Below, in pieces: positions 6,140 through 25,977 of a DNA stretch of 43,966 nt; the first letter of the stretch is position 1, and the number at the start of each line of letters is the position of its first letter. A model generated the notes under the pieces. It made no database searches and was not told the DNA's origin. It saw nothing but the letters and a program-made list of their open reading frames with translations. Source of the stretch: Bacilli bacterium (GTDB lineage Bacteria; Bacillota_I; Bacilli_A; RF39; UBA660); NCBI GenBank assembly GCA_017409025.1, contig JAFQTN010000002.1, forward strand, positions 1-43,966. The letters are read 5' to 3'. The translations under genes were made by a program, and so were the position numbers.

Positions 6140-7096
6140 TTAAACTTTTTTTAGTATACTACCTGCTTCACAATGATTACCCCAAAAATCAAGTAATTTA
6201 TCATTTTTATAAACTGATACTATCTCACAATTATTAGAACACCTTCCACATTCGACTATTCTTGTTTCTAATTTTAAATTATCTATATCAAAATCAAATA
6301 CATTCTCATATTTACTTTCCCTAGCCATAATAGCTATACCAAAAGCGCCCATTAAATGTGAATTTTTATCTACTATTATTTTATTTTTAACTATTTCTTC
6401 AAAAGCCTTAACTACTGCTTTATTTTTACTAACTCCCCCATTAAATACAATTGGTCCACGTATCTTCTTACCTTTTGCCACATTATTAATATAATTTACA
6501 GCTACTGCTCTACAAACACCAGCAATAATATCTTCTTTCTTATACCCCGCTTGTATTTTATGAATTAAATCAGATTCAGCAAAAACAGTACACCTAGCAG
6601 CTATATTCACTTTATTCTTAGAACTAAAAGCAACTTCACTTACTCTTTCTATTGGAACATCTAATCTCTTAGTTAAAGAAGTTATAAAAGCACCAGTACC
6701 TGCAGCACATAAAGTATTCATCGCATAATCTATTACAACGCCGTTATTAATAAGTGTTATCTTACTATCCTGTCCACCTATTTCAAAAATAGTCCTAACA
6801 TCAGGATATAATCTAACTGTCCCAACAGCATGAGCTGTAATTTCATTTTTTATTGTCTTAGCACCAAGTAATGTCCCAATTAATTTTCTAGCAGAACCAG
6901 TAGTCCCAACACTGACTACCTTATATTTATTTAAATCTATATCTTCTCTCATATTTTTAATAACTTTTTTTACCGCTTTAATAGGATTCCCTTCAGTATA
7001 TAAATAACTACTAGTTATTATATTATTATATTCATCAATTACTACCCCTTTAGTAGATATAGAACCAATATCTATTCCCATATATAATTTATTCAT
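6140..7096 (-). CDS. Activator ATPase of 2-hydroxyacyl-CoA dehydratase type (BadF/BadG/BcrA/BcrD family)
   Basis: These ASKHA-fold ATPases carry a [4Fe-4S] cluster and pass high-energy electrons to a partner reductase or dehydratase. The sequence has MGIDIGSISTKG at the N terminus, EIGGQDSK, LCAAGTGAFI and AARCTVFAESD. The cysteines of the last two motifs bind the cluster in this family. After about residue 285 comes a cysteine-rich tail (CGRCSNNC, then GNHCEAG). That tail is typical of the activase part of the very large activase-DUF2229 proteins rather than of HgdC itself. No dehydratase subunit lies nearby, so the partner is unknown. The ATG at 7096 follows GGTGAT by 4 bases and is preferred over an upstream GTG. 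Confidence 0.85.
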   Translation of the reverse strand: MNKLYMGIDIGSISTKGVVIDEYNNIITSSYLYTEGNPIKAVKKVIKNMREDIDLNKYKVVSVGTTGSARKLIGTLLGAKTIKNEITAHAVGTVRLYPDVRTIFEIGGQDSKITLINNGVVIDYAMNTLCAAGTGAFITSLTKRLDVPIERVSEVAFSSKNKVNIAARCTVFAESDLIHKIQAGYKKEDIIAGVCRAVAVNYINNVAKGKKIRGPIVFNGGVSKNKAVVKAFEEIVKNKIIVDKNSHLMGAFGIAIMARESKYENVFDFDIDNLKLETRIVECGRCSNNCEIVSVYKNDKLLDFWGNHCEAGSILKKV

Positions 7097-7229
7097 CAAT
7101 ATCACCTACCATAATTATATGTAGAATTTATATAAAAATTTGTCGAATTATAGCCTAAAAAATGTACACTATTTATCTACATATTTTTATGTTTATTTAT
7201 GAGAAAATATAACCAAGAGGTGTATTATT

Positions 7230-7466
7230 ATGAATAACAAAGTAAATAATACAAATATATATGATACCGTTAGAAAAAATATTAGAAAATATAGAAAATT
7301 AAAAGGTATGACTCAACAAGATTTAGCAGATGCTGCTGAATTAAGTCACGGATACATAAGAGAAATAGAATCTCTTAATATGGGAGTTACATTCTCACTA
7401 GACGCTGTAGAAAAAATAGCTAACGCCTTAGATTTAAAATTCTATCTTTTATTCGAAGAAAATTAA
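7230..7466 (+). CDS. XRE-family helix-turn-helix regulator, 78 aa
   Basis: A single-domain Cro/CI-type DNA-binding protein. The helix-turn-helix spans roughly residues 20-65 (MTQQDLADAAELSHGYIREI) and includes the usual KIANALDLKF segment that closes the domain. It has no other domain, so any ligand or partner is unknown. An AGAGGTG site precedes the ATG. It is transcribed divergently from the dehydratase activase gene (134 bases apart) and converges on the symporter gene, sharing a terminator with it. Its target is not evident. Confidence 0.9.
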   Translation: MNNKVNNTNIYDTVRKNIRKYRKLKGMTQQDLADAAELSHGYIREIESLNMGVTFSLDAVEKIANALDLKFYLLFEEN

Positions 7467-16065: not shown

Positions 16066-17913
16066 TCACTCACTTTCAATACCTAACCATTTTCTAAGTA
16101 TTTCATCTAATTCTACTTGATTTATAGGTTTAGATAAATATGCACAAAAGCCTTCTCTTAAATATCTTTCTTTAGATCCCTCAATAGCATTAGCAGTCAA
16201 AACTACTACTGGTGTATTAAAGCCATTCGCTCTTTTCTTTAAATTATAAAGTGTTTGAATACCATCCATCTCAGGCATCATATGATCTAAAAGTATTAAA
16301 TCATACTTTTTATTTTTAGTATAATTTAAACATTCTAATCCACTTTTAATACTAGTAATTTTAAAATTATATGGTTTTAATAACTTCTCAGCCACTTTTA
16401 AATTAAGTAAATTATCATCAACTAGTAATATTTCATAATTACTTCCATCAAAGTGTTCTTCTACCGTTTTTTTCTTAACTTTATGTGAATCCAAACCAAC
16501 AATCTTAGACTTATCCACAATTTCCTGCTCTAATTCAACTACAAAAGTAGTACCCTTTTGATATATACTTTCAAAAGAAATCTTACCGCCAATCATATCA
16601 ACTAATTTTTTAGTAATAGAAAGTCCTAACCCAGTTCCTTGAATATTTTTTTGTTCCTGATCTAATCTCTCAAATTTAACAAATATTTTATCTTGATCAC
16701 TTTTCTTTATCCCCATACCAGTATCAATTACTTTAAAAGTTAAATTAGCTTTATTACCAAAAATTCTAGACTCAATTTCTAATTTAATATTTCCTTTTTC
16801 AGTATATTTAACAGAATTAGATAATAAATTCATAAGTATCTGATATATTTTAACTTCATCACCCATTAACACACTAGGAATATTACCAATAGTACTAACC
16901 GTATACTTAATAGGTTTTTCACCTAAAGATACATTAATAATATTATTAATTTCAGCTACTACATCAGCCAAATTATAAGGCTTATTATTAATTTTAGTTT
17001 TCCCTTCTTCAATCTTCGTAATATCCAAAATATTATTAACTATCTCAAGTAAAGTATCTCCAGCCTTATTAATATTTTTAATATCTTCTTCGATATGTTT
17101 AGGAACATCATTAGAAAGTATTGATTGAGATAACCCTATAATAGCATTCATCGGAGTCCTAATCTCATGACTCATACTAGCTAAAAAGTTAGTCTTAGCT
17201 CTATTAGCTTCTTCCGCAGCATCTTTTAATGCATTCAATTCTTCAATATACTTAATATCTGGATTCTCTACAGTAAAATATAAAAATATTGTAATAAGAG
17301 AAATACCACTACCTAAAATAAATATTCCATCAAATCTCATCTGTATGAAAAAACTCATACATAAAATAACAATTGATATTAATATAGACCAATTCTTATA
17401 ATTAGCAATTTTTCTATTGTTAAATAATAATAATATTAACAGTAATAAAGAACCAACAATAGCAAGGCCATAAACAATAAATACTCCATTACCATAATAA
17501 ACTTCATTAGAAGCCATATATCCAATATTAGAAAATAGTAATAATATCATCAATATAATTGAAATAACAAACCACATTTTACATAAAATAGATTTTTTTA
17601 ACATAATTGCAAAATTATCATATTTTACATTTGCTTTATTTAATAAAACATAAAATATAAATAAACTTAACCAAACAAAAAGTGAAATAAAATATAACTT
17701 AGAAACAAATTCTATAATCACTAAATTAGACATATTATAATTAACAACATACATACTAAAAATATCTAAAATCAATGAAATCATCGTAGAAACAAGCAAT
17801 CCTTTATATACTTTGCTCTCTAAGAAATTATATTTTCTTTTTAAAAAGTACACTGAAGAAAGTATAAAAACATAAACAAAACTAACTACTTGAACAGATA
17901 TATCTTTATACAT
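16066..17913 (-). CDS. Hybrid sensor histidine kinase with receiver domain
   Basis: The 615-residue protein begins with six or seven membrane helices (residues 1-215), a compact 7TM-type sensor region with almost no external domain. A helical linker follows, then the HisKA dimerisation domain with phospho-histidine H249 (ASMSHEIRTPMNA). The ATPase domain has DTGMGIK and GTGLGLSI, and the C-terminal receiver domain holds the phospho-acceptor D543 in LLDHMMPEMDG and the lysine of LSKPI. Such hybrid kinases pass phosphate His to Asp internally, then to an Hpt histidine and a separate regulator; both are encoded just upstream. The ribosome-binding site overlaps the preceding stop. The stop is TGA. 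Confidence 0.93.
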   Translation of the reverse strand: MYKDISVQVVSFVYVFILSSVYFLKRKYNFLESKVYKGLLVSTMISLILDIFSMYVVNYNMSNLVIIEFVSKLYFISLFVWLSLFIFYVLLNKANVKYDNFAIMLKKSILCKMWFVISIILMILLLFSNIGYMASNEVYYGNGVFIVYGLAIVGSLLLLILLLFNNRKIANYKNWSILISIVILCMSFFIQMRFDGIFILGSGISLITIFLYFTVENPDIKYIEELNALKDAAEEANRAKTNFLASMSHEIRTPMNAIIGLSQSILSNDVPKHIEEDIKNINKAGDTLLEIVNNILDITKIEEGKTKINNKPYNLADVVAEINNIINVSLGEKPIKYTVSTIGNIPSVLMGDEVKIYQILMNLLSNSVKYTEKGNIKLEIESRIFGNKANLTFKVIDTGMGIKKSDQDKIFVKFERLDQEQKNIQGTGLGLSITKKLVDMIGGKISFESIYQKGTTFVVELEQEIVDKSKIVGLDSHKVKKKTVEEHFDGSNYEILLVDDNLLNLKVAEKLLKPYNFKITSIKSGLECLNYTKNKKYDLILLDHMMPEMDGIQTLYNLKKRANGFNTPVVVLTANAIEGSKERYLREGFCAYLSKPINQVELDEILRKWLGIESE

Positions 17914-17918
17914 ATAAA

Positions 17919-19547
17919 TTAACTCCCAACTTTAGTAATTGCCTCAAATTCAGATTGAACTTTTTTAAAACTATCAACTATCTTCGGATTAAACTTACGA
18001 CCAGATTCCATTACAATTAAAGACGCTACTTTATCATAATCAATTGGAACTATCGTATTAACTAAATTAACATATTCTATTGCTAAACTAGCTATTTGCG
18101 TAGCAATGGGAATACTATTAGCACTAAGCCCTTGAGGATATCCATTACCATCATATCTTTCATTGCAGCTCTTAACTATATCATAACAATAATTACTATC
18201 GATATCATGATTATCGCGACTAATAACATATTTAACTATATTAGCGCCATTTATATTAGCCATATTCATAATACTTCTCTCATCTTCAGTAAATAACCCT
18301 TTCTTATAAAGTAAACTCTTAGGCATTGTCCAATTACCAATAGCATAATAAACTGAAGAATTAGCTATCTTATCTATCATATTACTATTTATATTATATT
18401 CAGGATATTGAACTGAAACTTGCATTGCAAGAATTCTCGTATATTTCCTTAACATCTCCATACACTTAGCATTATCCATCTCATATGAGTGAACCAAGGA
18501 ATTCACTATATTTTTTAAATCTCTATGTTGTTGTGACAAAATATCTCCTAGTGAATTACTTGATCTATATAAATTAATCAAATTCTCAATTCTATGTCTA
18601 ACTACTTGAACATTAAAAGGTTTCTCTAACATATCTGCTATCTTATAACTATAAGCTCTATTTCTAGTTTCCTTATCATAATTACCACTAATAATTATAA
18701 CAGGCATCTTACTAAGATAATTATTATCATTTAAATAATCAAGCACACTAAAACCATCTAAATCTGGCATAATTAAATCTAAAAATATACAAGATATATT
18801 CATATTACCAGAATTTTTTAATAGTTCAATCGCCTCATTACCATTATGAGCTAATATAACATCATATTTCTTTTCAAATATTTTCTTTATTAAATTACAA
18901 GTCATCTTATCATCATCAATAATCATAACTGTACTTTTATTTCCCTCAGTCAAAAACATCGCATTATCATTTAAAGCTTCATTAAATTCCGGAAACTCAT
19001 TAGTTAAAGATACTAATATTGAATTAATAAATTCCTCTTTACTATAAATATTACTATCATTATTAATAATATTATGTATTTTTAAAATAGCTAAAGAAAC
19101 TGAATCAACCATCTGATTAAGTTTAGTCTCTAAATGACTTTTAACCCCATCATTATGAAGTGCATATCTCTTCCCATTATTAACTGAAGAAACTAAAACT
19201 ACAATAATTTTCTTTCCATTATTATCACATAAAGATATTGTATTCATATATTCTAAATAAGAATTTAATGTATTATCTTTTCTTTTATAATTTAAACTAA
19301 TACCATTACTTTCATTTTCTAATTTAGAAATAGATAAAGAATCTATATAACTATCAATATCATCTTCATAAATAAATTCTTTACAATCATTTAAATATTT
19401 CATATAAGATATTTCTTCTGAAAAAGAAATATTACCAGCTTTAACTAAATATTTATATAATTTATCTTCCATTACATCAATAACTAATATCTCATTATAA
19501 CTATTAATTATTGAATTATTTATAATCCCTTTATATTCATTCATCAT
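17919..19547 (-). CDS. Response regulator with degenerate HD-GYP output domain
   Basis: Residues 1-195 form an unassigned N-terminal region that may contain a PAS-like part. A receiver domain follows at about 205-325 (MIIDDDKM, phospho-acceptor D257 in LDLIMPDLDGF, EKPF). The C-terminal 200 residues align with HD-GYP c-di-GMP phosphodiesterases: the order IANSSVYYAIG, MPKSLLYKKG, LFTEDE, then ERYDGNGYPQGL is intact. However, the metal-binding HD of HDIGK and the HH before ERYDG are replaced (YYAIGN and SCNERYDG), so the enzyme is probably inactive and acts as a binding or scaffold domain. It lies 3 bases after the Hpt gene and 5 bases before the hybrid kinase. It has no DNA-binding domain. 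Confidence 0.87.
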   Translation of the reverse strand: MMNEYKGIINNSIINSYNEILVIDVMEDKLYKYLVKAGNISFSEEISYMKYLNDCKEFIYEDDIDSYIDSLSISKLENESNGISLNYKRKDNTLNSYLEYMNTISLCDNNGKKIIVVLVSSVNNGKRYALHNDGVKSHLETKLNQMVDSVSLAILKIHNIINNDSNIYSKEEFINSILVSLTNEFPEFNEALNDNAMFLTEGNKSTVMIIDDDKMTCNLIKKIFEKKYDVILAHNGNEAIELLKNSGNMNISCIFLDLIMPDLDGFSVLDYLNDNNYLSKMPVIIISGNYDKETRNRAYSYKIADMLEKPFNVQVVRHRIENLINLYRSSNSLGDILSQQHRDLKNIVNSLVHSYEMDNAKCMEMLRKYTRILAMQVSVQYPEYNINSNMIDKIANSSVYYAIGNWTMPKSLLYKKGLFTEDERSIMNMANINGANIVKYVISRDNHDIDSNYCYDIVKSCNERYDGNGYPQGLSANSIPIATQIASLAIEYVNLVNTIVPIDYDKVASLIVMESGRKFNPKIVDSFKKVQSEFEAITKVGS

Positions 19548-21433: not shown

Positions 21434-21470
21434 AAAAGACCCCTGGATTTTTATTCCAAGGGTTTTATTT
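21434..21470. terminator. Bidirectional terminator between the FAD gene and surface protein 1
   Basis: A 9-base stem with one mismatch (21439-21447 with 21555 minus 100, that is 21455-21463) has T-rich runs on both strands. It can end both convergent genes. A related hairpin lies at 23788-23825. Confidence 0.75.
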
Positions 21471-21521: not shown

Positions 21522-21647
21522 CTATGGCAACCTTACAGAACGTGATCCAAAGGTTGTAGATGCACCAGATTGGTCATTAAAGGCAAACACTCCAGCACTT
21601 GCACCGCTATCAAACTTTCCACCACGTACGAAAAATGGTTTAGTAGC
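21522..21647 (-). other. Variable-region-like C-terminal segment of surface protein 1
   Basis: Codons from FFVRGG to the stop. The pattern RGG, G, AG.F.FN, G, RSV matches the diversified segment of DGR target proteins. The paralog keeps the framework residues but changes most others and is one codon longer. No template repeat was seen in this window. Confidence 0.45.
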
Positions 21648-23606
21648 GTTAACAAAAGCTCCACTCTTATTATCACTATACCATCCAGCAGTTTCATTTA
21701 AAGCATGGCCACCACATGTGTCTATTGTACAAAGCCCTAAATTAGTAGAATCCGTTCCTACAAATATATCAGTTGGATATACATCATAATACTTTTTATC
21801 TGGCAATTCGCTAAAACCTGAATCGTAACCATTATCATTAATTGCATTTCCAAAATGTCCCATTACAAATTCATTTGCACCACCTGACATATCAAATACT
21901 CCAGTTATATTTCCTGTTGTACTTTGTGGATATGATGACACTGTTCCAAATGCATTTGGACATCCAGAGGTTGATCCAGCATTTGCAGTTGATGCTCCAC
22001 AACCAGTGTATACGGAACTATTATTTATTCTTACCTCTTTATTGATTCCATATTTAGAATGTGATAGATATGCTACAGCTCCCCACTCACTATTCTTTAT
22101 CATATGATCTCTACCATCTTGCAACAATGAAAACATATTAGCTATTGTTAAACCAGTTAAAGGAAGTCGATTAGGTACTATTACATACGGTCCCGCTCTA
22201 TCATCACCCTCACTAGCCTCAAACTTTCCTACCCATATTCCTGGTAACATTTCATCAGAATCAACTATATTATCATTGTCATTATCCCACCAAAATGCTG
22301 GATGCGTTCTATATTCTGATGTTGCATTTTCTAATGTCATAGGTGCATCTGCAGATTCAAATGAAATATCAATTGAAGTTACCCCACCATGAGAAACAAT
22401 TTTATCAACTTTAGTCACAGCAACTTTATAATCTTCTGAATCAAGATAATCTTCTAAATATATTGTTTGATCATAACCATTAAAATCAATGTAAACGCTT
22501 CCAGTAGCGAATAATTTTTCAAAATAAGCAATATCACTTTCACTACAACTAAAATTATCTATAGTTCCATCTTCCCAAGTATTACAAAAACCATAACCGT
22601 CAATAAGCGTCCAATATGTTTTTTCAATAAATTCTTCTTCACTTATTAACAATGTATATTTCTTGTTATAACATTCAGGATGAGTTTCTATTGTAGCATT
22701 AGTTAAATCAGAACAAGCAACATTAGTTGATATTTTATACTTAAATCTAGGTATCCATACATAATAAGCAATTTGAGGTGCATCAACAATTTCATTACGG
22801 TGTGCCTGATGATAATTTTCAGGAGTTTCATTTTCTATTTCTTTATAATATGGCATCCAAGACTCTACAGTAACTGCATTAGCCCATTCTTTATTATCAT
22901 AATTATACCAGGATGGATCATCCGGAGATACACCTATTAATGTGCCATTATCTTCTATTTTTACTGGTATCATAGCATTTTCATCAATTACTGGTTTATT
23001 AGGTTGTGGTGTATCTGCGCATTGTCCGCCAAGAGAAAGATCAAATGTTTTATCTTGGGTTTCATTATCAGTCTCATCTTTATCTAACCATATATATAAA
23101 TAATATGTTTTTGAAGTTAAGTCTGTTTCTGTAAACACCGAGTTTGTTAATAGAGATGCTTGTCCACCTGTTGTTAATCCTTTGAAATTTCCTTCACTTA
23201 CTACATCAGTAGTACAACTATCTTTATTTGTCGTTAATGCATATCTTAAATTTTCACTATTGGATAAAGCTTCAGCTATAGAATTTACTGTTAACCATAA
23301 GTCCATTCCTACTGTTAAACCATCCTTCTTTATATCCGCCGAAACAGTTACCGTTCTTTTTAATACATTTACCCCATCACCAGCACATTTATCTGGAAAT
23401 TTTTCTACATCTACTGGTATTAATGATATATCTTGAGATGTTATAGGTTCACCACCGTCTGCTGAACATGAAAATTCTCTAGTTACTGTAAATGCTAAAC
23501 CAGTATTCTCTGTAGAATTCCAAGTCCAATATGCCAATGTTCCACCTACTACTGTAAATACTATTATTAAACTTAATAATGATATTATCGTTTTTTTATT
23601 ATTCAT
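21522..23606 (-). CDS. Exported surface protein 1: TasA/camelysin-like N terminus and C-terminal C-type-lectin/FGE-like (DGR-target-like) domain
   Basis: The 694-residue protein starts with a hydrophobic export segment ending GGTLAYWTWNSTENTG, like SipW-processed TasA/CalY proteins. A beta-rich domain follows to about residue 200. The middle (about 245-435) is unassigned and differs from its paralog. Then come an acidic loop DNDNDNIVDSDE (441-452, EF-hand/dockerin-like) and GIWVGKFE. The C-terminal domain of about 190 residues has EWGAVAYLSHSKYG, GVFDMSGGANEFVMG, HALNETAGWY and finally FFVRGGKFDSGASAGVF. This is the order seen in the lectin-fold variable proteins of diversity-generating retroelements and in sulfatase-modifying-factor domains. 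Many cysteines suggest disulfides. Ligand and function are unknown. Confidence 0.8.
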   Translation of the reverse strand: MNNKKTIISLLSLIIVFTVVGGTLAYWTWNSTENTGLAFTVTREFSCSADGGEPITSQDISLIPVDVEKFPDKCAGDGVNVLKRTVTVSADIKKDGLTVGMDLWLTVNSIAEALSNSENLRYALTTNKDSCTTDVVSEGNFKGLTTGGQASLLTNSVFTETDLTSKTYYLYIWLDKDETDNETQDKTFDLSLGGQCADTPQPNKPVIDENAMIPVKIEDNGTLIGVSPDDPSWYNYDNKEWANAVTVESWMPYYKEIENETPENYHQAHRNEIVDAPQIAYYVWIPRFKYKISTNVACSDLTNATIETHPECYNKKYTLLISEEEFIEKTYWTLIDGYGFCNTWEDGTIDNFSCSESDIAYFEKLFATGSVYIDFNGYDQTIYLEDYLDSEDYKVAVTKVDKIVSHGGVTSIDISFESADAPMTLENATSEYRTHPAFWWDNDNDNIVDSDEMLPGIWVGKFEASEGDDRAGPYVIVPNRLPLTGLTIANMFSLLQDGRDHMIKNSEWGAVAYLSHSKYGINKEVRINNSSVYTGCGASTANAGSTSGCPNAFGTVSSYPQSTTGNITGVFDMSGGANEFVMGHFGNAINDNGYDSGFSELPDKKYYDVYPTDIFVGTDSTNLGLCTIDTCGGHALNETAGWYSDNKSGAFVNATKPFFVRGGKFDSGASAGVFAFNDQSGASTTFGSRSVRLP

Positions 23607-23631
23607 TTTAAATCACCTACCATATAATAAT

Positions 23632-23660
23632 ATATTATCATTTAGTATCCCCCTTGTCAA
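23632..23660 (-). promoter_or_regulatory. Strong promoter of surface protein gene 1
   Basis: On the minus strand a perfect TTGACA (23655-23660) and TAATAT (23632-23637) with 17-base spacing. The flanks (AAAGAAA before the -35 box, TAAATGA before the -10 box) match the promoter at 25949-25977. Confidence 0.78.
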
Positions 23661-23723
23661 TTTCTTTACAGTCAATAAATAAAATTTTCTCGAACAAAAT
23701 TACTGCAAACAATAAATCTAAAT

Positions 23724-23746
23724 TAGAAAATAATAATTAATAAAAA
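23724..23746 (+). repeat. 23-base direct repeat, copy 2 (remnant of the FAD-gene tail between the paralogs)
   Basis: Identical to 21406-21428 but outside any gene. The sequence just before it is not a continuation of the FAD gene, so only a short remnant is left. Confidence 0.75.
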
Positions 23747-23787
23747 AATTAACCAACCATTTAGGTTTGTTTTATTATGCAAAAAAA

Positions 23788-23825
23788 ATATAAAAGACCT
23801 CTGGCATTTATACCAAAAGTCTCTT
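23788..23825 (-). terminator. Terminator after surface protein gene 2
   Basis: An imperfect stem (23795-23804 with 23813-23822) with a long T run on the minus strand. It is related in sequence to the hairpin at 21434-21470. Confidence 0.6.
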
Positions 23826-23845
23826 CATCATTTTAAAATTGTATT

Positions 23846-23974
23846 TTATGCACCATATCCAGTTACAATTACTGAACGAAATCCATAAGTATCAAAAGCA
23901 GTACCAAAATGATCATTAAAGTAAAACGCACCAGAAGTAGTTCCGTTACTGTATAATCCTCCACGGAAGAACCA
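23846..23974 (-). other. Variable-region-like C-terminal segment of surface protein 2
   Basis: Codons from WFFRGG to the stop, the counterpart of 21522-21647. Framework residues RGG, G, SGAF.FND, G and FRSV are kept. Intervening codons differ at one to three positions each, and one codon is inserted relative to copy 1. Confidence 0.45.
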
Positions 23975-25915
23975 ATCTTTTCCCTCAGAAGAAACAAATC
24001 CACCACTTTGATTATCACCATACCATCCAGCCGTTTCATTTAAGGCATGACCACCACACGTATCTATTGTACAATATGATAAATTTTCACTGGCTGTTCC
24101 TGGAAAATCAGTTGGAGAATATAAATCATAATATTTTTTCTCTGGCATTGATGTAAAACCTGATTTATCCATACTACCAATTGTATCTCCGTAATGTCCC
24201 ATTACATATTCCTGTTTTCCACCTGACATATCAAATACTCCACTTATATTCCCAGTTGTACTTTGTGGATATGTTGAAACTGTACCAAACGCATTTGGAC
24301 ATCCTGTAGTTGAACTAGCATTCGCTGTTAATGCACCACAACCTGTATATACAGAGCTATTATTTATTCTTATTTCTTTATTTATTCCATATTTTGAATG
24401 TGATAAATAAGCGACAGCCCCCCATTCACTATTCTTCATCATATGAGAATCAATTTCTGAAAATAATAATCCATATACAGCTTCAGTAGCAAATGCTTGA
24501 CTTATTTTAAATTGTTCACTTAATGTTCTACCGGTTACAGAAAGATGAGTTGGTAATATTGTGGGTTCATATACATCAGGAGACATATCGTATTCATCAG
24601 TCGTTTCAAATTTTCCTACCCATATTCCAGATAACATTTCATTCGAATCTACTACATTATCATTATCATCATCCCACCAAAATGCCGGATGTGTTCTATA
24701 TTGTGTCTTAGCATCTCCTAAACTCATTTCCATGCTTGCAGATTCAAATTCTATATCTATCGGCATCTCTTTTTTACCCGAAGAAATAATTTTATCACTT
24801 TGTAATATCAACTCGTATTGAGATGGTTTTAAAAATTCAGTTATATTATAATTAGCACCTACCTCTGTCATAAATATTATTTTTTTATTATTAACAGCAT
24901 TAATTAAAGAATCATAATATTCATCTGGATTTCCTAAAACAGCATCAGGATCCCATTCTTCCACTCTTTTTAAAAATTCACTCTCGCTAACTTTTAAATT
25001 AGCATAATAACAATCTGGATAATCAGTAGGATTAACATCAGGTATATTAGAACAAGCAACACTACTACTAGACATTTTATACCTATATCTAGGTATCCAT
25101 ACATAATATGCTAAAATATATGTTTCTGGTACTTCCATATTAGGATTTTCAAAATACTCATCCATTTGAGCAGTTGAATCTACCAATACAATATTGGCCC
25201 ATTTTTTGTTACTATAATCATACCACGACGGATCATCTTCTGATACTGTTGTTACAGTTCCATCATCAGATATTTTCACAGGAAGCATACCAGTAGCAAG
25301 TTCGGGTTTATTAACTTGCGATGCATCACTACATTGTCCCCCAAGTGAAAAATCAAATGAACTATTTTGAGTATAATTATTTGTTTCAGCCGCATCTAAC
25401 CATATATACAAATAATATGTTTTTGATGTTAAATTATCTTGTGAAAATGCAATATTATTTAATAATGATACTCTACTATTATTTGCAGTATTCTTAAATG
25501 TTCCTTCACTTACTATATCTGTTGTACAGCTATTCTCATTTGTAGTTATTGCGTATCTCAAATTCTTATTAGCTAAAGTCTGATCTATAGCATTTACATT
25601 TAACCATAAATCTGTTCCTATTGTTAAACCAGTCTTTTCGATATTTGCTGAAACGGTTATTTTTCTTTTTAATACATTCTCCACATCACCAGCACACTTG
25701 TCCGGAAATTTTTCTACATCTACAGGTATTAATGATATATCTTCTGAAGTCATAGGTTCTCCACCATCTGCTGAACATGAAAAATCTTTAGTTATTGTAA
25801 AAGCTAAACTTGTATTTGTCGTTGAATTCCAAGTCCAAAATGCTAACGTTCCTCCCATTACCGTAAATATTATTGTTAAACTTAACAATGTTGCTACTAA
25901 TTTCTTATTATTCAT
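23846..25915 (-). CDS. Exported surface protein 2, paralog of surface protein 1
   Basis: A 689-residue paralog with the same plan. The export segment ends GGTLAFWTWNSTTNTS, and a nearly identical N-terminal domain follows with the same cysteine positions (FSCSADGG, DKCAGD, GGQC). The middle (about 240-430) is unlike the other copy. Next are the acidic loop DDDNDNVVDSNE and GIWVGKFE, then the lectin/FGE-like domain with EWGAVAYLSHSKYG, GVFDMSGGKQEYVMG and HALNETAGWYG. The last 42 residues (from WFFRGG) keep the framework of the other copy but differ at most exposed positions and end with a short VTGYGA extension. It has its own promoter and terminator, so the two genes are separate transcripts. 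Surface location is inference from the export segment. Confidence 0.8.
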   Translation of the reverse strand: MNNKKLVATLLSLTIIFTVMGGTLAFWTWNSTTNTSLAFTITKDFSCSADGGEPMTSEDISLIPVDVEKFPDKCAGDVENVLKRKITVSANIEKTGLTIGTDLWLNVNAIDQTLANKNLRYAITTNENSCTTDIVSEGTFKNTANNSRVSLLNNIAFSQDNLTSKTYYLYIWLDAAETNNYTQNSSFDFSLGGQCSDASQVNKPELATGMLPVKISDDGTVTTVSEDDPSWYDYSNKKWANIVLVDSTAQMDEYFENPNMEVPETYILAYYVWIPRYRYKMSSSSVACSNIPDVNPTDYPDCYYANLKVSESEFLKRVEEWDPDAVLGNPDEYYDSLINAVNNKKIIFMTEVGANYNITEFLKPSQYELILQSDKIISSGKKEMPIDIEFESASMEMSLGDAKTQYRTHPAFWWDDDNDNVVDSNEMLSGIWVGKFETTDEYDMSPDVYEPTILPTHLSVTGRTLSEQFKISQAFATEAVYGLLFSEIDSHMMKNSEWGAVAYLSHSKYGINKEIRINNSSVYTGCGALTANASSTTGCPNAFGTVSTYPQSTTGNISGVFDMSGGKQEYVMGHYGDTIGSMDKSGFTSMPEKKYYDLYSPTDFPGTASENLSYCTIDTCGGHALNETAGWYGDNQSGGFVSSEGKDWFFRGGLYSNGTTSGAFYFNDHFGTAFDTYGFRSVIVTGYGA

Positions 25916-25948: not shown

Positions 25949-25977
25949 ATAATATCATTTATGATATCTCTTGTCAA
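25949..25977 (-). promoter_or_regulatory. Strong promoter of surface protein gene 2
   Basis: On the minus strand a perfect TTGACA (25972-25977) and TATTAT (25949-25954) with 17-base spacing. It closely matches the promoter of the paralog. Confidence 0.78.

Follow-up and report, generated by a model that had tools for sequence, protein, structure and literature searches.

The stretch of DNA analyzed here, referred to below as the window (43,966 nucleotides; contig JAFQTN010000002.1 of GenBank assembly GCA_017409025.1, forward strand, positions 1 to 43,966), comes from a Bacilli bacterium of the GTDB lineage Bacilli_A, RF39, UBA660. On its reverse strand lie two neighboring paralogous genes, C1a and C1b, each encoding a protein that consists of an N-terminal export segment, a stem domain, and a large C-terminal head related to the targets of diversity-generating retroelements (DGRs). 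Both open reading frames (ORFs) are real, with similarity far beyond chance (E values down to 1e-234). All motifs quoted in an earlier, sequence-only reading of the locus were indeed present, namely GGTLAFWTWNST / GGTLAYWTWNST, GIWVGKFE, EWGAVAYLSHSKYG, GVFDMSGG, HALNETAGWY, and FRGG or VRGG. However, the N-terminal domains, described there as nearly identical, share 69% identity, and the term cysteine-rich overstated a content of 10 and 12 cysteines per ~690 amino acids (aa). Neither protein had a match in Pfam or NCBIfam, and an Rfam search of the window returned no match either. The features of the locus are as follows.

23846..25915, reverse strand: gene C1a, 689 aa, comprising export segment, stem domain, and head module
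25820..25903, reverse strand: C1a hydrophobic export segment, ending in GGTLAFW, by its sequence a SipW-like signal or a membrane anchor; common to the stems of the family
25316..25819, reverse strand: C1a stem domain (residues 33 to 200), beta-rich, with four cysteines; a TasA-like fold is suggested
23849..25303, reverse strand: C1a head module (residues 205 to 689), with a TaqVP/FGE-type C-type-lectin fold according to profile match and predicted structure
24761..25063, reverse strand: low-confidence insert in the C1a head (residues about 285 to 385), missing from most relatives
23864..23974, reverse strand: C1a stretch (residues 648 to 684) with gapless alignment to the DGR template/variable repeats of relatives
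25949..25977, reverse strand: promoter-like site of C1a, TTGACA-17-TATTAT with TG extension (consensus match only)
23792..23825, reverse strand: terminator-like hairpin 3' of C1a, from sequence
21522..23606, reverse strand: gene C1b, 694 aa, with the same architecture as C1a
23001..23606, reverse strand: C1b export segment and stem domain (residues 1 to 202)
21525..22991, reverse strand: C1b head module
21534..21635, reverse strand: C1b equivalent of the variable repeat (residues 658 to 691)
23632..23660, reverse strand: promoter-like site of C1b, TTGACA-17-TAATAT with TG extension (consensus match only)
21439..21463, reverse strand: terminator-like hairpin 3' of C1b, from sequence

Because each gene has a promoter-like site of its own and is followed by a hairpin, C1a and C1b are probably neighbors rather than parts of one transcript. 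The two do not stand alone: the source genome, a draft of 1.28 Mb in 37 contigs (95.9% complete), contains a family of ten such genes, eight of which encode proteins with a head and two more the stem only. An N-terminal hydrophobic export segment of one style was present in all eight head proteins. The two proteins without this head (L023:4053-5939 and L021:11424-13226) end in a different C-terminal module, YRYEGKEVDNYI...WRIIGLE....

The head is a single module that makes up the C-terminal two-thirds of the protein, starting at about residue 205, and it is common to hundreds of proteins of uncultured Bacilli, a single scan having found 276 relatives. When a profile built from 47 heads was searched against the PDB, the only sequence match was 5VF4 (E = 2e-4), the entry for TaqVP, a variable protein that belongs to a DGR in a Thermus aquaticus prophage (PMC6328139). 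The same protein was the top Foldseek match (E = 3.7e-8) of an AlphaFold2 model of the head, built from a 72-sequence alignment (predicted local distance difference test [pLDDT], 84.6; predicted template modeling score [pTM], 0.82). Alignment of this model to TaqVP with VIA-align spanned the whole head (Z = 22.5; root mean square deviation [rmsd], 3.3; 256 residues), with PvdO, TvpA, formylglycine-generating enzyme (FGE), and Mtd following at Z scores of 13.0 to about 11 (12.9 for TvpA and 10.9 for Mtd). As modeled, the head has the FGE-subtype C-type-lectin fold of DGR variable proteins. A DGR-target-like lectin/FGE domain had been assigned to the C terminus from sequence, with structure prediction and a fold search against TvpA and Mtd as the proposed check. 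That search did match the C-type-lectin fold, TaqVP being the best hit, and the assignment turned out stronger than originally claimed, given the Z score of that hit and the template repeats that mark homologous heads in relatives as DGR targets.

In these relatives, heads bear the sequence signature of DGR targets. Reverse transcriptases (RTs) with the DGR motif IGNxxSQ were found in L036, L047, and the presumably viral contigs L105 and L106, each time downstream of a head gene; in L036, the RT is accompanied by an Avd protein that matches the Avd Pfam model above the cutoff. All mismatches between template and variable repeat were located at template adenines in three pairs (15/15, 9/9, and 13/13; p = 4e-9 to 5e-6). 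A systematic scan revealed 13 distinct pairs in which 90 to 100% of mismatches fell on an adenine of the template. Most of these pairs lie next to IGNxxSQ RTs, and 11 of the 13 have a recognizable head gene in the same stretch. Among 193 surveyed genomes of the order, 71 contain heads and 27 contain close RT relatives (>200 bits), and all but one of these 27 also have heads (26/27; Fisher p = 3e-12). Two genomes with numerous head candidates, G031 (43) and G164 (31), had no RT match and are candidates for either frozen repertoires or assembly gaps. An RT-like frame in another genome (G093:C2:307-1272) contains seven in-frame TAG codons, possibly reflecting a TAG-recoding phage or element, and the DGR on L105, an IMG/VR contig, has a target with a SipW/TasA-like stem and lies between two Fic-like ORFs (18-899 and 6449-7261).

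Copies at a distance from the template are rewritten as well. The L036 template and a copy on another contig of the same genome differed at adenines in 21 of 22 mismatches. Large families were observed in G100 (1.6 Mb; 51 head matches) and G085 (1.3 Mb; 46). Of the 39 copies examined in G100, 19 had a significant adenine bias to a single template (p<1e-3), and in 8 copies, located on six contigs, 90 to 100% of mismatches to that template were at adenine. Pairwise differences of about 20 bases among these fresh repeats show that none was copied from another. The remaining copies match the template less well, as may be expected if they have drifted or follow another template.

Proteins with the stem of the window carry the same marks. 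A 600-aa protein in L029 combines this stem (GGTLAYWRW...FSCAADGGG) with the head, and downstream of its gene lies a template repeat with 21 of 26 mismatches at its adenines (p = 1e-8). L030, located on a different contig of that genome, encodes a second protein with this stem, for which 18 of 22 mismatches were at adenine (p = 8.5e-8). Thus, proteins with the exact layout of C1a and C1b have been DGR targets, while an RT search of the L029/L030 genome found none.

In the source genome itself, a search with PF00078 and DGR RTs found no DGR RT, an absence that is not final in a draft assembly; the single RVT_1 match was a retron St85-type RT (L017:7908-8861, contig C20), just over the NCBIfam cutoff. 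No template repeat accompanied any of the eight own copies in the loci examined, and a DNA search with the C1a repeat returned only paralogs. C1a residues 648 to 684 form a gapless alignment with templates from relatives. None of the recovered templates revealed an adenine bias in the window copies, and the third-base test was not significant (p = 0.23 to 0.26). At template-N positions, the own copies carry, among others, the codons TTA, GTA, AAG, and AGG, which are not directly reachable from AAY by adenine mutagenesis. The ratio of nonsynonymous to synonymous substitution rates (dN/dS; NG86) was 0.2 to 0.6 between paralogs and 0.23 for the former variable repeat in the comparison of C1a with C22a; judged by these ratios, the C-terminal repeats of the own copies are under purifying selection. 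The earlier suggestion that ligand sites differ between copies fits these observations, but the sites in this genome show no sign of hypermutation.

Heads ride on exchangeable stems, among them prepilins, SipW/TasA-type segments, and short membrane stalks. On a quick, unrooted tree of 85 heads in which the deep forks are unsure, stems sorted into five classes by simple motif rules must have changed class at least 15 times. DGR-linked targets were found both on prepilin stems (L036, L047, and L126) and on SipW/TasA-like stems (L105, L125, and L128). The prepilin N-terminal methylation motif, present in L036 on a protein with the same head, is absent from C1a and C1b. A survey of related genomes for the architecture, also proposed in the sequence-only reading, showed the head to occur in 71 of 193 genomes and its stems to be repeatedly exchanged, the window's own combination recurring in L029. 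Two pseudopilin-like ORFs lie upstream of a head gene on contig C35 of the source genome (L020:869-2535), yet its own heads are all on SipW/TasA-type stems.

TasA and camelysin are SipW-exported fiber proteins of Bacillus, and a TasA/camelysin-like N terminus had been proposed for C1a and C1b. Several features are in line with this idea: the style of the export segment, the beta-rich domain directly behind it, and a SipW-like signal peptidase encoded on contig C33, upstream of one family member (TIGR02228, over the cutoff). The top fold match of a stem model (residues 33 to 200) was the TasA fiber 8aur, although with a Z score of 6.7 (rmsd, 3.6; 130 residues) and from a poor model (pLDDT about 65). 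An initial structure model, from only 7 sequences, reached a pLDDT of 47; its fold matches beyond the stem were meaningless and its Foldseek list was noise. Unlike TasA and camelysin, the proteins carry an additional head of 490 residues, and stem sequence profiles had no match in Pfam, NCBIfam, or the PDB. With a Z score too low to tell kinship from a common fold, and with no sequence match, TasA-like folding of the stem is plausible but unproven, a good lead rather than a result. SipW-type peptidases matched in 184 of the 193 genomes of the order and are thus nearly universal, so that finding one in the source genome is not specific to this system, and we rejected SipW as a marker for it.

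We consider it likely, with a probability of roughly three in four, that C1a and C1b belong to a frozen repertoire of displayed, stem-mounted receptors or adhesins that descended from a multi-target DGR system. In such a repertoire, the SipW/TasA-type export segment and the beta-rich stem, perhaps polymerizing like TasA, would hold each protein at the cell surface, where the TaqVP-like head could contact an extracellular ligand through a binding face formed by its last ~45 residues. The head family, which is large in this order of small-genome Bacilli, would have been diversified as it is in relatives, where DGRs appear to rewrite the 3' ends of genes at template adenines, in trans on dispersed copies as well, and copies would have spread by duplication and repeated stem exchange. 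After loss of the DGR, the eight own copies would now be kept by ordinary purifying selection as fixed specificities. The predicted fold, the homology to DGR targets, and the DGR signature in relatives, same-stem proteins included, are shown and support this explanation, as do the exchange of stems and a source genome in which no RT or template was found. Several points weigh against it. The stem model behind the TasA likeness is weak, the dN/dS estimates come from a simple method applied to diverged pairs, and the frozen state was judged from an assembly. Moreover, the closest same-stem relative has no RT that we could find, such that a live DGR on this stem is deduced from template marks, and an RT and template of the source species could sit in a gap of its 37-contig, 95.9% complete draft.

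That last point is also what speaks for an active DGR in this species, with C1a and C1b as live targets, all the more as a single template serves copies on many contigs in relatives and the RT need not be close. We nevertheless regard this as unlikely: the loci examined contain no template-like partner for any of the eight copies, the C1a repeat retrieves paralogs only, some codons at template-N positions cannot directly derive from AAY, and the former variable repeat is apparently under purifying selection. Conversely, the lack of adenine bias to any recovered template and the nonsignificant third-base test would fit an older, ordinary branch of C-type-lectin adhesins that never were DGR targets, with DGR-targeted heads arising later. 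This history seems rather improbable, in view of the gapless alignment of templates to C1a residues 648 to 684 and of the same-stem proteins in a relative, with their template repeat and adenine-biased variable repeats. Finally, the fold might indicate an enzyme of the formylglycine-generating family. In FGE, the copper-binding (catalytic) cysteine pair is located after the RGG motif, and neither C1a nor C1b has a cysteine there. Furthermore, head cysteines are not conserved across the family, and the source genome has no match to the FGE-sulfatase family (PF03781). We rejected this identity, which has hardly any probability left.

Beyond the frozen repertoire proposed for the source genome, the relatives invite a wider generalization, in which one DGR rewrites many dispersed heads on pilin or SipW/TasA stems throughout a genome and lineages that have lost the RT, the source genome's among them, retain fixed, pre-evolved specificities, i.e., hypermutation followed by domestication. 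We consider the odds of this generalization to be about even.

Parts of this picture have precedents. As in TaqVP (5VF4; PMC6328139), the whole head is predicted to adopt the FGE-subtype C-type-lectin fold, with the binding region at the extreme C terminus; in contrast to that single-domain prophage protein, the head is grafted here onto an export stem and encoded on a chromosome in which no DGR was found. In cyanobacteria, paralogous C-type-lectin DGR targets are dispersed and carry varied, grafted N-terminal domains, some being diversified remotely and others not (PMC7517822), and the earlier statement that no such system has been described was therefore too strong. However, that study stresses regulatory domains, whereas the stems observed here are export stems (prepilin and SipW/TasA type), and a single 1.6-Mb genome holds as many as 51 copies. 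Membrane anchoring is common among cellular DGR targets (Roux 2021; PMC8144416), and, like those targets, the proteins described here combine an N-terminal membrane or signal segment with a C-terminal C-type-lectin variable domain; the main text of that survey does not mention pilin stems, and its approach could not detect remote targets. In the open-access literature, we found no report of DGR targets with SipW/TasA stems and none describing what looks new here, namely, export stems combined with very high copy numbers in small genomes and with a series that runs from fresh targets via an orphaned template to copies that seem frozen. The binding diversity that DGRs can generate is comparable in scale to that of antibodies. 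The family described here, which reaches ~50 copies in genomes of 1.3 to 1.6 Mb and is mounted on exchangeable display stems, includes fresh targets as well as orphaned templates and copies that seem frozen, and it offers a natural series in which to ask how a hypervariable receptor turns into a fixed one and what its ligands are.

Two further gene arrangements were noted. Near C1a and C1b, a hybrid histidine kinase gene and a response-regulator/HD-domain gene occupy positions 16066 to 19547 of the window. On contig C33, the gene for the SipW-like peptidase is in a row with two others (L025:2943-5228 and L018:15582-17925), one coding for a membrane-anchored protein of 557 aa and one for a head protein into which a Laminin_G_3 lectin domain is inserted.

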